The position numbers and the translations under genes are program-made. A model generated the notes under the pieces. The model searched no databases and was not told where the DNA came from. It was given only the letters and a program-made list of their open reading frames with translations. From Candidatus Mancarchaeum sp. (GTDB lineage Archaea; Micrarchaeota; Micrarchaeia; Micrarchaeales; Micrarchaeaceae), in the NCBI GenBank assembly GCA_027364995.1, contig DAHXOG010000009.1, positions 1 through 14,462 of the forward strand: a stretch of 14,462 bases of DNA, written 5' to 3'. How positions within the stretch are numbered: the stretch's first letter is position 1; each line of letters opens with the position of its first letter. Below are positions 817-11,972 of the stretch, in pieces.

Positions 817-891
817 TGCTCCCGCCGGGATTTGAACCCGAGTTTCAGACTTGAGAGGCCTGCGTCCTTGACCGGACTAGACGACGGGAGC
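817..891 (-). tRNA. tRNA-Glu (anticodon CTC)
   Basis: Read on the minus strand from 891, GCTCCCG pairs perfectly with CGGGAGC, U8 is present, the D-arm closes GTCT with AGGAC, and the anticodon arm is CAGGC-CTCTCAA-GTCTG, giving anticodon CTC, which reads GAG. The variable loop has 4 nt; the T-arm is TCGGG-TTCAAAT-CCCGG. Discriminator A73 lies at 817; the bases after it are AAT, so CCA is not encoded. There is no intron. A small plus-strand ORF running over this gene is not credible. The region on its 3' side (below 817) is the AT-rich segment noted at the window's left end. Confidence 0.95.
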
Positions 892-2346: not shown

Positions 2347-3393
2347 TTAGCTCTTCAGTGTTTTAATCGAATAATTTATTGCCTCGCTCTCGGTTGCGGG
2401 TATGGCCTCGTACTTGCAGTTATTTATGAATACCGGGGTGAACGTCACATTGTAGAAGCTAGCCAGCTGCGCCTGTGCCGCCAGCGTCGTAGGGGCATTG
2501 ACCATGCAGTCGCCGAACGAGCTCATGTTGAAGCCCGCAGCCTCTGCCATGGAATAAAGGCTGTCGTTGGTTATTGGCAATCCGTTATACGTGGAGTTCA
2601 ATATGCTCATGAATTGCGGGAATTTTTGCTGTGCCGAGCCGCATGCAAGGTAAGCGCCCAGCAATTGCGTCCTTTCAACTCCATACTGCTTATAATGGCT
2701 TATTGAATAGCCTGAGAACACGAACTTGTAGCTCATGTTTATCTCATTATTGTATCTCTTGCTCATGTTTATTGCCTGGATTATGCTGCTAATCGCTCCA
2801 GGGGCGTAAGGATCCGTTATCAAATATACGGGTATTGGCGTATTGGATACGCATGTATACTTATTGCTTATGCCTATAACGCCTTTTGCAACAACGCTGT
2901 TGTTGCTAATTATCTTTGGCTTCAGCATCTGTATGAATGGCGTTTCCAGGGTTAGGTTAGACCCGTAGAACTCCATGGACACGTTCAATGTGGTATTCGT
3001 ATATGGGTCATCGTAAGGCACTATGACGGACCACGTATTGGTGGATGGCTGGTATGATACCTTGGATTGGTTAAGGAGCGAGTAATAAGCCAGAACTGAA
3101 AGCGTCGTGTTTACATACTGGTAATTTGCAAGTACTTTGCCTGCTGCGCTAAGCACCTGCGATTGAGTGTACTTTGGCGTAATGCACGTGCTGTTGCTCG
3201 ATATGCCGTACTGGCATACAATCACGGATTTGAAATTCGAAAGCGAGAATGCCAGGGCTACGAGTATTACTACAAGCACAATGAGCGCTACGTGTAAGTA
3301 GTCCAGCCCGCCCAGGTTGGAGGCCTTCTTCACCAAGAAAACCGGTCCCTTGTCCTGTTTCTTACTCTTATTTGCGTTCGTTTTCTTCTCCAT
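2347..3393 (-). CDS. Membrane-anchored DsbA-fold protein with CxxC replaced by APGA
   Basis: 348 residues from ATG at 3393. The open frame extends 12 codons further, to an ATG inside the tRNA-Arg intron, but that would overlap the tRNA, so I chose the later ATG. A lysine-rich cytoplasmic tail (1-30) precedes one transmembrane helix (about 31-51); the rest should be extracellular and carries many N-glycosylation sequons (NST, NTT, NVS, NLT, NMS). The C-terminal part follows DsbA/thioredoxin-fold order: strand IPVYLITDPY, helix after APGA (197-200), a helical insert with GAYLACGSAQQKF and ALGF-like GFNMSSFGDC, then the cis-Pro strand VTFTPVFINN (P320). Both active-site cysteines are alanine. 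Other cysteines (60, 70, 181, 251, 296, 326) may form structural disulfides. A chaperone or binding role is inferred. It starts 15 bases after the tRNA. Confidence 0.8.
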   Translation of the reverse strand: MEKKTNANKSKKQDKGPVFLVKKASNLGGLDYLHVALIVLVVILVALAFSLSNFKSVIVCQYGISSNSTCITPKYTQSQVLSAAGKVLANYQYVNTTLSVLAYYSLLNQSKVSYQPSTNTWSVIVPYDDPYTNTTLNVSMEFYGSNLTLETPFIQMLKPKIISNNSVVAKGVIGISNKYTCVSNTPIPVYLITDPYAPGAISSIIQAINMSKRYNNEINMSYKFVFSGYSISHYKQYGVERTQLLGAYLACGSAQQKFPQFMSILNSTYNGLPITNDSLYSMAEAAGFNMSSFGDCMVNAPTTLAAQAQLASFYNVTFTPVFINNCKYEAIPATESEAINYSIKTLKS

Positions 3394-3408: not shown

Positions 3409-3500
3409 CGGGCCCGGCGGGATTTTCATATTTTTTTATTTTGAACCCGCGACCTTCACCTTAGGAGGGTGCCGCTCTATCCAAGCTGAGCTACGGGCCC
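3409..3500 (-). tRNA. tRNA-Arg (anticodon CCT) with a 17-nt T-loop intron
   Basis: From 3500 on the minus strand, GGGCCCG pairs perfectly with CGGGCCC, U8 is present, the D-stem is GCTC/GAGC, and the anticodon arm GCACC-CTCCTAA-GGTGA gives CCT, reading AGG; 27-43 is a G-A mismatch. The T-stem GCGGG/CCCGC is intact, but its loop is 24 nt. Removing 3439-3423 restores TTCAAAT exactly. UUCA (3445-3442) pairs with UGAA (3428-3425), leaving three-base bulges on opposite strands (AAA and AAU); cutting each after its second base, the rule of the archaeal splicing endonuclease, yields that product at position 59/60. Discriminator G73 is at 3409; CCA is not encoded. The gene sits between argS and the DsbA-like gene, all on one strand. 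Confidence 0.9.
3423..3439 (-). other. tRNA-Arg intron at position 59/60
   Basis: The 17-nt intron is almost pure A/T with seven consecutive A residues on the minus strand. It also contains an ATG (3429-3427) in frame with the downstream DsbA-like gene and a TATA-like AAAAAAATATG. If that acted as a TATA box, transcription would begin near 3405, between the tRNA end and the ATG at 3393. The splice sites are supported by the bulge geometry and the restored T-loop. Confidence 0.8.
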
Positions 3501-3569: not shown

Positions 3570-5468
3570 TTACATGCGCTTTACTGCAGTTATGCCAAGC
3601 GCATCAAGCAGCTCGGAGCTGAGCCTTGCGAATGCCTGCGTTATTGCCAATCTGGATTCCCTGATGTCATCGCTTTCAGCCTTGAGTATTGGCACAGCCT
3701 CATAGAATTTGCCGAAGCTCGTAGATAGGTCCATAAGGTATTCTACTACTATGTTGGGCTTGCATTCCCTTACTGCCTTCTCGAGTATTATGTTTGCGTA
3801 TGATATCCTTTTTACCAGTTCAAATTCCTGGCTTGAGAATGAATACCCATTTTTTATGTCGTAACGCTTATTGCCATTCCCTGCGCTCTCGAGTATGCGC
3901 TCGGCCCTTGCATGCATGTATTCGCAGTACGGACCGGAATCTCCCTCGAAATTAAGTGCCCTTTCCCATGAGAACACGAGCTTCTTCTCGTTCGAGAGCT
4001 TAAGGAATTCGTATTTTATGGCGGATAGCGCCACCGCCTTAATTACATCTGCCTTCTCGCCTTCGCTAAGGTTGAACCTGTCTGTTATCAGCGCCGATGC
4101 CTTCTCCTTTGCCTCCCTTATAAGGTCATCGCACGTATACCCTACCCACGTTCCCTTCCTGCCGGATAAGGAAATGCCTTCAAGGTCAACTACTCCATAA
4201 GCTACGTGCTTTATGCTTTCTGAATAGTCCTTTCCGCCTATCATGGCTATAACTAATCTTACCAATGACTGCTCGTAACTCTGCCTGGCGTCTATAGTGT
4301 TTATCGCAATGTCCGCAGCGCCGAAGCCGGCTTTGCTTCCTTCTTTACCTGTAGAATACAATGGCCTGCCGCTTTGCCCCTGCTCCATGAAAATACCATA
4401 GGAGAAGCTGTCCTCGAGCAATCCAAGCTTCCACATATGGAAGGCTATGTCCTTCGAAACATAATTGGGAGCGCCGTTGCTTCTTACCAATACCTTTACG
4501 CCTTCCTTCAGGCCTTCGAACTCCTTCGGAAGCTCGCCCAGCTTCGAGTGCTCTATAATTATGCAATTGGCGTAATCGCCATCCTTCGGTTTTGCGATTA
4601 TGCCCTTCTCATCCATTTTCGCGAGCGCCTTCTCCAAGAGCCTTTTTCTTACTATGTCGCTCTCCCATACCAATACATCATGGTATATTCCCATCTCCAA
4701 AAGCGTATCATACTCGGCCTTTACGAAGCTCTCTGCCATCTCCCTTGCGGCCTTTGCTTCGTATGTGCCATCCTGGTCCATACTTACCAATACATTATTT
4801 ATCTCGTCTTTTATCTCCTTATTGTCCAATGCCTTATTCACCGCTACATAGATTTCGCCTATCATGGTATCGAATTTCCTGTTGCTGTCGAATACTATGC
4901 CAAGCTTGTCCATGTGCGCCAATCCCCATATGACCTCGGCCACCTGCAGCCCGAGGTCGTCGATGTAGTCCTCACGCTCTACCTTATACCCTGCGCAGGC
5001 GTACAGCCTTGCTATCGAATCGCCGAGCAGCACGTTGCGCACCTGCCCCATATGCATCGGGTGCGCGGGATTTATGCTAGGGTATTCTATTATCGCCTTC
5101 TTGCCCGTGCCTTTGTCTGATGCGAATATATGATCGGAAGAAAGCGCATATGCTATCGCGGATCTCGAATACGAATCACGGTCTATCGTGAAATTTATGA
5201 AGCCGTTCTTCTCGGTTATTTCTGAAATGTAATCGGGCTTTTTCATGCTTTCCATTATGCCTGAAGCTATGGCATGAGTGTCAAGCCCCTTTGCCTTTGC
5301 AATCCTGAGTGCTATAGTGGACGATATATCCCCGAAGGATCTGGACAATTCGACGCTCTTTTCAATATCGCTAAACTCAAATTCGCCATTGTAAAGCCCG
5401 TCTATGGCTTTATGGAGCGAAGATGCTATGCTCTCCATCAATGCATTATAAGGCGCTTTTTCATCCAT
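3570..5468 (-). CDS. argS: Arginyl-tRNA synthetase
   Basis: Charges tRNA-Arg with arginine using ATP, in the cytoplasm. 632 residues, near the usual class Ia ArgRS length of 550-650. The N-terminal Add-1-like domain covers about 1-110. The ATP-binding signature is at 132-145 (INPAHPMHMGQVRN), where HIGH appears as HMGQ (139-142). DYIDDLGLQ (168-176) matches the family's D..GxQ block. The KMSK equivalent is LSGRKGT (434-440). GDSGPYCEYMHAR precedes the C-terminal DALR anticodon-binding helical domain, ending ITAVKRM, close to the family's usual final LGI.A..RM. ATG at 5468 is the first start after nnr, 34 bases away, so the two are probably co-transcribed. Its cognate tRNA-Arg lies directly downstream. 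The altered HIGH histidine is unusual but the rest is intact. Confidence 0.95.
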   Translation of the reverse strand: MDEKAPYNALMESIASSLHKAIDGLYNGEFEFSDIEKSVELSRSFGDISSTIALRIAKAKGLDTHAIASGIMESMKKPDYISEITEKNGFINFTIDRDSYSRSAIAYALSSDHIFASDKGTGKKAIIEYPSINPAHPMHMGQVRNVLLGDSIARLYACAGYKVEREDYIDDLGLQVAEVIWGLAHMDKLGIVFDSNRKFDTMIGEIYVAVNKALDNKEIKDEINNVLVSMDQDGTYEAKAAREMAESFVKAEYDTLLEMGIYHDVLVWESDIVRKRLLEKALAKMDEKGIIAKPKDGDYANCIIIEHSKLGELPKEFEGLKEGVKVLVRSNGAPNYVSKDIAFHMWKLGLLEDSFSYGIFMEQGQSGRPLYSTGKEGSKAGFGAADIAINTIDARQSYEQSLVRLVIAMIGGKDYSESIKHVAYGVVDLEGISLSGRKGTWVGYTCDDLIREAKEKASALITDRFNLSEGEKADVIKAVALSAIKYEFLKLSNEKKLVFSWERALNFEGDSGPYCEYMHARAERILESAGNGNKRYDIKNGYSFSSQEFELVKRISYANIILEKAVRECKPNIVVEYLMDLSTSFGKFYEAVPILKAESDDIRESRLAITQAFARLSSELLDALGITAVKRM

Positions 5469-11701: not shown

Positions 11702-11874
11702 GTTTAAAACCTATGCCTACAAAACAAACCAGAATACAAATATTATTTATGAATACAACTTCGGTATTATTATCAAAGCCAGCATTTAAGCCTTTGTTGG
11801 TATATCATTATTAACATTTAAAATATGTAATGCAAAAAGAGTAATGCTTTCATTGGTCTTATATAATCTTTGAT
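11702..11874. other. Intergenic region between permease and tRNA-Leu
   Basis: No ORF seen. It contains AT-rich promoter-like stretches for the permease (minus, near 11735-11748) and for tRNA-Leu (plus, TTTAAAATATG near 11817-11827, about 50 bases before the mature 5' end). A closer TTATATAAT at 11859-11867 is too near the tRNA start to give a proper precursor. Confidence 0.35.
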
Positions 11875-11960
11875 GCAGGGATAGCAAAGTCTGGCCAAAT
11901 GCGACGGGTTTAGGGCCCGTTCTCCTAGCGGGTTCGAGAGTTCAAATCTCTCTCCCTGCA
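11875..11960 (+). tRNA. tRNA-Leu (anticodon TAG)
   Basis: A class II tRNA of 86 nt: acceptor GCAGGGA/TCCCTGC, U8, D-arm with GCA/TGC, anticodon arm ACGGG-TTTAGGG-CCCGT with anticodon TAG (reads CUN leucine codons), a long variable arm TCTCCTAGCGGGTTC, and T-arm GAGAG-TTCAAAT-CTCTC. Discriminator A73 is at 11960; CCA is not encoded. There is no intron. It converges with the NFACT-R gene. Confidence 0.95.
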
Positions 11961-11972
11961 TATTTTTATTTG
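11961..11972 (+). terminator. T-rich terminator after tRNA-Leu
   Basis: TATTTTTATTTG directly follows the discriminator base, typical of archaeal oligo-T termination at tRNA genes. Confidence 0.5.

Follow-up and report, generated by a model that had tools for sequence, protein, structure and literature searches.

The window, that is, the whole 14,462-nt stretch of the Candidatus Mancarchaeum sp. contig DAHXOG010000009.1 that was analyzed, carries on its minus strand a tRNA-Arg(CCT) gene behind argS (Table 1). The acceptor stem of the tRNA is formed by GGGCCCG (3500–3494) and CGGGCCC (3416–3410), with a G as discriminator (3409); a D-arm is present, and the anticodon loop reads CTCCTAA. In the T-arm, however, the stem strands GCGGG (3450–3446) and CCCGC (3421–3417) enclose a loop of 24 nt (3445–3422) instead of the usual 7. 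Once the 17 nt from 3439 to 3423 are removed, a complete, standard tRNA-Arg(CCT) is left, with TTCAAAT as its loop and GGGTTCAAATCCC as the predicted spliced junction. An earlier note on this DNA had claimed a tRNA-Arg(CCT) with a 24-nt T-loop, a 17-nt insert at position 59/60 and the restoration of TTCAAAT upon its loss, all of which is borne out by the minus-strand layout. Since both exons lie in normal order inside 92 nt, a permuted or split tRNA was ruled out.

Table 1. Features of the tRNA-Arg(CCT) locus in the window (nucleotide numbers are those of the tRNA).
Feature	Position	Strand	Evidence
tRNA-Arg(CCT) precursor with T-loop intron	3409..3500	-	Missed by ARAGORN; Rfam 3500-3442, 30.6 bits
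5' exon, nucleotides 1-59	3440..3500	-	Spliced exons identical across 8/8 species of the genus
17-nt intron, between nucleotides 59 and 60	3423..3439	-	TTCAAAT restored on removal; junction common to 72/72 distinct family introns
3' exon, nucleotides 60-73	3409..3422	-	Sequence layout; exon identity within the genus
Central BHB helix, exon strand UUCA, nucleotides 54-57	3442..3445	-	Partner 3428-3425; 4/4 pairs in 68/72 distinct family introns
Central BHB helix, intron strand UGAA	3425..3428	-	C opposite G57 in 5/6 other T-loop-intron tRNAs
5' bulge AAA; inferred cut after second base (3440/3439)	3439..3441	-	Sequence
3' bulge AAU; inferred cut after second base (3423/3422)	3422..3424	-	Sequence
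Outer helix = T-stem 5' strand GCGGG, partner 3421-3417	3446..3450	-	Sequence
Anticodon CCT	3463..3465	-	Sequence
argS (arginyl-tRNA synthetase), directly upstream, same strand	3570..5468	-	Pfam PF00750, PF05746, PF03485

With regard to its sequence, the junction agrees with the definition of the BHB motif given in the accessible text of PMC6379350, namely a 4-bp central helix with two 3-nt bulges. As the earlier note had read it, UUCA pairs with UGAA between the bulges AAA and AAU, and the second helix, the outer one, sits in the exons as the 5-bp T-stem. The inner helix comprises at most two A-U pairs (3438/3429 and 3437/3430), and contiguous inner helices of 0 to 10 bp were observed across the family. 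The description of the motif as relaxed consequently applies to the short inner helix only; the central helix is of the canonical form, and so are both bulges. The minimum-free-energy fold of the window precursor lacked the UUCA/UGAA helix and contained only the T-stem and a 3-bp AUA/UAU pairing; the central helix was present in such folds for one out of five intron-bearing precursors (L062). As folding does not show the central helix of the window RNA, the case rests on comparison.

A failure of normal tRNA prediction on this gene had been anticipated, and this was indeed what we found: ARAGORN run on the window did not report the tRNA-Arg(CCT) gene, and Rfam RF00005 gave merely a partial and misaligned match close to its cut-off of 29 bits. 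Two other tRNAs of the window, both without a T-loop intron, were found whole by ARAGORN, i.e., Leu(TAG) (11874–11961, plus strand) and Glu(CTC) (817–891, minus strand). In the list of open reading frames, the protein gene downstream of the tRNA, likewise on the minus strand, begins at an ATG located inside the intron (3429). An in-frame ATG at 3393, 15 nt past the tRNA end, is the more probable start, and it suggests co-transcription of tRNA-Arg(CCT) and the downstream gene, whose product had no Pfam match at E ≤ 0.001.

We compared the gene with its counterparts in congeneric genomes. All eight species of the window's genus share a single spliced tRNA-Arg(CCT) sequence, while its introns comprise seven sequences (mean identity 0.61); for tRNA-Arg(TCT), the mean identities are 0.98 in the exons and 0.65 in the introns. 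Searching the own genome by pattern with up to three mismatches revealed one CCT and one TCT gene, each with a T-loop intron. A second, intact tRNA-Arg(CCT), for which the earlier note had proposed to look, was not found in this genome, which is 87% complete, so that another CCT gene could sit in the missing part. Because the exons are invariant while the introns vary, and one CCT gene was found, we infer strong selection on the intron-bearing gene, which probably encodes the sole tRNA with anticodon CCT in the genome. The insert itself appears to be a passenger, in which the helix strand near the 3' end and the bulges are kept and the remainder changes in both sequence and length. A tRNA pseudogene, decayed and with an insertion in its T-loop, would be in line with the failure of ARAGORN, but it would be most improbable in view of the identical exons of eight species next to introns of such low identity, of the role of the gene as the only one found for CCT, and of the recurrence of the same insertion site and motif in 21 of the 27 genera of the family.

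This recurrence emerged from a survey in which the tRNA-Arg(CCT) pattern, with up to three mismatches, was run on 85 family genomes; it matched in 80 of them and in none of the other five, and the reversed-pattern control matched in no genome. The 143 tRNA-Arg(CCT/TCT) genes that were parsed fell into 78 with a T-loop intron alone, 42 with an anticodon-loop intron alone, 23 with neither and none with both. This set leaves out, at contig ends, the TCT gene of G028, the CCT gene of G107 and a further CCT match of G020, as well as a second 5' part in G117 (locus L132) and one tRNA-Ile matched by the pattern; the gene of G033 was counted from L064, where it is whole, and its partial copy in L052 was left out. 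The comparison with related genomes that the earlier note had suggested thus yielded both states of the gene, the loop being intact in orthologues such as that of G027, where TTCAAAT is carried directly; locus L042 shows such an intact orthologue at the same place. In L132 (G117:C15:32219 and 32900), two tRNA-Arg(CCT)-like 5' parts lie about 0.7 kb apart, one of them complete; the second runs into unrelated sequence within the parsed range and is perhaps a partial duplication or the sign of a long intron.

The family T-loop introns, 72 of them distinct, measure 13–43 nt with a median of 32, and all 72 begin with TTCAAA and splice to TTCAAAT. A short intron in the T-loop, considered unusual in the earlier note, is therefore ordinary in the lineage, with lengths down to 12 nt in the sister family, and the proposed cut after the second base of each bulge holds, as a predicted one, throughout this sequence comparison. 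All four central pairs occur at the expected register in 68 of the 72 introns, the other four having a partial central helix only, and at each of seven other registers they occur in none; shuffled introns reached four pairs in a mean of 1.4 out of 72 cases (maximum 8, 1000 rounds). The central helix is hence not due to chance. If the insert were retained, yielding a tRNA with an enlarged T-loop, its edges would hardly restore TTCAAAT in each of the 72 cases despite the variable length, nor would intronless orthologues be expected, and we regard this alternative as very improbable.

Introns at the same site were also observed in other tRNAs. A T-loop-intron pattern for any tRNA, run on the eight genomes of the genus, gave four to six matches per genome and one to six with the reversed control, and given this high control a match was counted only if its exons, once joined, gave a readable tRNA. 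In the own genome, five tRNAs harbor a T-loop intron, i.e., Arg(CCT), Arg(TCT), Cys(GCA), Ala(GGC) and one read as Ser(GGA), with a sixth pattern match (C109) left out of this count. Introns of 13–16 nt are common there. The tRNA read as Ser(GGA) has introns at both 37/38 and 59/60 in this genus, and because of the additional 37/38 intron several of these genes are called Ala or Thr by ARAGORN, which itself gives Ser for L295 only. A general rule of one intron per tRNA, to which the absence of both sites together from all 143 Arg genes might point, was rejected because the tRNA read as Ser(GGA) bears both.

Once L216, a tRNA-Met whose loop is intact and whose downstream match is due to chance, and the loci that yielded no tRNA (L205, L207, L213, L273, L275, L287 and L290) had been set aside, 27 distinct introns of other tRNAs were obtained, 25 of which form all four central pairs. 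In these 27, the pair between nucleotide 57 and the intron is A-T in 20 cases and G-C in five, with a mismatch in two. Specifically, A57 is paired with U in 70 of the 72 Arg introns and, in other tRNAs, in 20 of 21, and G57 with C in five of six. Even between orthologues of tRNA-Ala(GGC) the pair differs, with G57/C in the own genome (L026) and A57/U in G006 and G007 (L225 and L208), which is a compensatory change in the central helix. A permissive tRNA scan returned mostly chance matches. By eye, L189:480-680 (Candidatus Micrarchaeota isolate CSMAG_1100) resembles a tRNA-Arg with a T-loop intron and insertions near the anticodon and the variable region, and is possibly a multi-intron tRNA.

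As to the enzyme, a three-unit splicing endonuclease had been expected, and the own genome contains one tRNA-intron endonuclease frame, a single fused frame of 401 aa, whose best match, collinear along its whole length, is the ARMAN-2 epsilon2 enzyme (4fz2/9w2k; E 2.7e-164, residues 17–400 of 400, 62% identity). The catalytic residues Tyr236, His251 and Lys282 and Lys161 of the ARMAN-specific loop, as named in the accessible text of PMC6379350, which assigns 4fz2 to Candidatus Micrarchaeum acidiphilum, are the same in the own endonuclease when the alignment is read by eye. Relatives of the enzyme, some of them partial, were detected in 83 of the 85 family genomes. One of these genomes, G023, encodes an endonuclease with 100% identity to 4fz2 across the 381 aa compared, and is therefore ARMAN-2 or very near it; its introns at 59/60 interrupt Arg(CCT), Arg(TCT), Ala(GGC) and a tRNA read as Ser(GGA). 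As G023 belongs to the same family as the window, this identity would also place the window in Micrarchaeota, within the family of Micrarchaeum. According to the accessible text of a 2025 structural paper, the ARMAN-2 enzyme cleaves a BHB tRNA-Ile precursor and a bulge-helix-loop tRNA-Cys precursor of ARMAN-2 in vitro (PMC12397907), and the ARMAN enzyme type is reported, in the part of PMC4033280 at hand, to cut non-canonical introns at various positions.

The exon-intron anatomy, the conservation of the motif across the family, the single intron-bearing copy and the matching endonuclease gene are together best explained if the tRNA-Arg(CCT) gene is functional and its T-loop contains, at 59/60, a BHB intron of 17 nt, a reading that we hold, on sequence grounds, to be very probably correct, with splicing as its predicted consequence. 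In the precursor, T-loop nucleotides 54–57 would pair with UGAA of the intron, with the T-stem forming the outer helix; the epsilon2 endonuclease, as a predicted homodimer, would cut behind the second base of each 3-nt bulge, and nucleotides 59 and 60 would be joined by a ligase, upon which the T-loop would be able to form.

The 3' half of tRNA genes is a usual integration site of archaeal viruses and plasmids. An intron that is spliced might also have a use of its own, such as shielding this half, a proposal already published (Randau and Soll 2008, cited in the accessible part of PMC3293823), or coupling maturation to the co-oriented argS. The presence of some intron, in the T-loop or in the anticodon loop, in 120 of the 143 parsed tRNA-Arg(CCT/TCT) genes would fit such a use, as would the finding that, in 15 of the 30 loci fetched, argS is followed by tRNA-Arg(CCT) at a distance of no more than 400 nt. 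However, this adjacency was not seen in the other 15, some of which end at contig ends and which include the intron-bearing G023, and with adjacency in just half of the loci the coupling to argS was rejected. Furthermore, the interior of the intron is not conserved, and intron-bearing genes have intron-free relatives (G027, G123 and the TCT gene of G056); the intronless gene of G027 lies 58 nt behind its argS match, as does the intron-bearing gene of the congener G049. We consider a use of its own unlikely.

For the phylum, 301 genomes, which all belong to one class, were scanned with an anchored exact pattern that admits 0–30 nt and then 31–46 nt in the loop; this pattern misses many genes, so that its counts are lower bounds, and G273, G275, G284, G295 and G299 are among the matches left out. 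The order also includes a sister family, of which at least 24 of 27 genera have tRNA-Arg genes with a T-loop intron, and there the matches listed, with identical strings and one partial match (G098) left out, comprise 72 distinct introns, 61 with four and 11 with three central pairs. Outside the order, all 52 genes among the matches listed with the 0–30 nt pattern have a plain loop, and the 31–46 nt pattern revealed at least nine introns in three genera (G162, G163, G164, G165 and G167; G211; G213), seven of them with all four pairs. The order's ancestor thus probably had T-loop introns at 59/60, which were later lost in places, replaced by introns at 37/38 or copied between tRNAs, and separate gains are the simplest reading outside the order. 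In an ArgRS tree of 30 proteins without an outgroup, the anticodon-loop and intronless states are nested among the T-loop ones. The T-loop label changes three times in this tree, and 67 of 500 label shuffles do as well; with no outgroup and with clustering within the shuffled range, a single origin is not proven by it.

Further evidence bears on the movement of introns. In 26 genomes, both CCT and TCT genes have a T-loop intron, and the two introns are 93–100% identical in three of them (G045, G031 and G007), 81% identical in G023 and at most 55% identical in 18, the own genome being lowest with 40%; between genera, identity reaches a maximum of 71% (574 comparisons). In G045 and G023, similar introns are shared by Ala and Arg tRNAs too. 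We also built a profile from 26 anticodon-loop introns, with the 16 of 42 shorter than 30 nt left out. Among 159 T-loop introns, it matched three at 22.8, 22.8 and 18.8 bits (G042, and G073 and G064 of the sister family), compared with 13.0 bits for the best of 3180 shuffles. The core of this profile, the motif CTTYTTNNNAAGAAGTTTAATCAAGAAG of about 28 nt, has 66 copies in 36 of the 85 family genomes and none in the reversed control; the own genome has no copy of it at up to three mismatches.

Inspection of 30 loci with this motif (L234-L263; e.g., L235:1501, L243:1501 and L246:1501) showed 14 tRNA introns, by reading 13 at 37/38 of Thr, Gly or Arg and one at 59/60 (G042), and 16 that were unparsed as tRNA introns. 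Among these 16, one begins 4 nt past the end of 16S rRNA and three begin 5 nt past that of a tRNA, and Rfam at gathering thresholds gave no family at the motif, save for a partial tRNA match that possibly overlaps it (L262:69-130, 37.9 bits). In G058:C22:24822-24969, the motif is present four times with a spacing of 40 nt. Its sequence, judged by eye, would allow two alternative hairpins that compete with each other. Our tentative reading, to which we give slightly less than an even chance, is that the tRNA introns of the order may be a spreading family, in which the ancestral 59/60 Arg intron was cleanly lost, swapped for one at 37/38 and copied within genomes, and whose core CTTCTTnnnAAGAAGTTTAATCAAGAAG, found at both sites and behind 16S rRNA and tRNA genes, is maybe a small mobile RNA element tolerated by the broad-specificity endonuclease.

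Both the intron site 59/60 and the type of endonuclease are already known. Non-canonical archaeal BHB tRNA introns, site 59/60 included, were reportedly described by Sugahara et al. in 2008, and the tRNA introns of ARMAN-1/2 together with their epsilon2 splicing endonuclease are said to have been the subject of Fujishima et al. in 2011. The window intron has the position, the BHB motif and the standard T-loop product of the former. With ARMAN-1/2 it shares the enzyme type and, in G023, the site in tRNA-Arg(CCT), whereas the genus and the interior of the intron are different. The accessible text of PMC4090602 lists 59/60 among non-canonical archaeal intron sites and gives Crenarchaeota and Nanoarchaeota as rich sources, whereas the present order consists of ultrasmall archaea, most genera of which have retained the site. 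Permuted tRNAs of Thermofilum pendens and of Cyanidioschyzon merolae, tRNA-Arg(CCU) among the latter, likewise have a BHB between nucleotides 59 and 60 in the part of PMC3218864 available, although there the 3' half comes first. Intron transposition has been described for Thermoproteales (PMC4033280 and 2010 work cited in PMC4033280 and PMC4090602, each as far as accessible), again with similar introns across different tRNAs and sites; here, another phylum is concerned, and the likeness is seen in some introns only. Order-wide retention, site switching and copying between tRNAs were not found in the literature searched, and the T-loop introns of ARMAN-2 itself may be in print.

A non-canonical tRNA intron can thus persist across most genera of an order with its interior free to change, which fits a broad-specificity endonuclease that makes such introns nearly neutral. 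Because a standard tRNA finder misses this gene and many of its relatives, decoding sets derived from such genomes are understated. The history of the family is the interesting part of this case, and the many alleles at hand, with an intron at 59/60, at 37/38 or with none, make the gain, loss and copying of introns directly testable.
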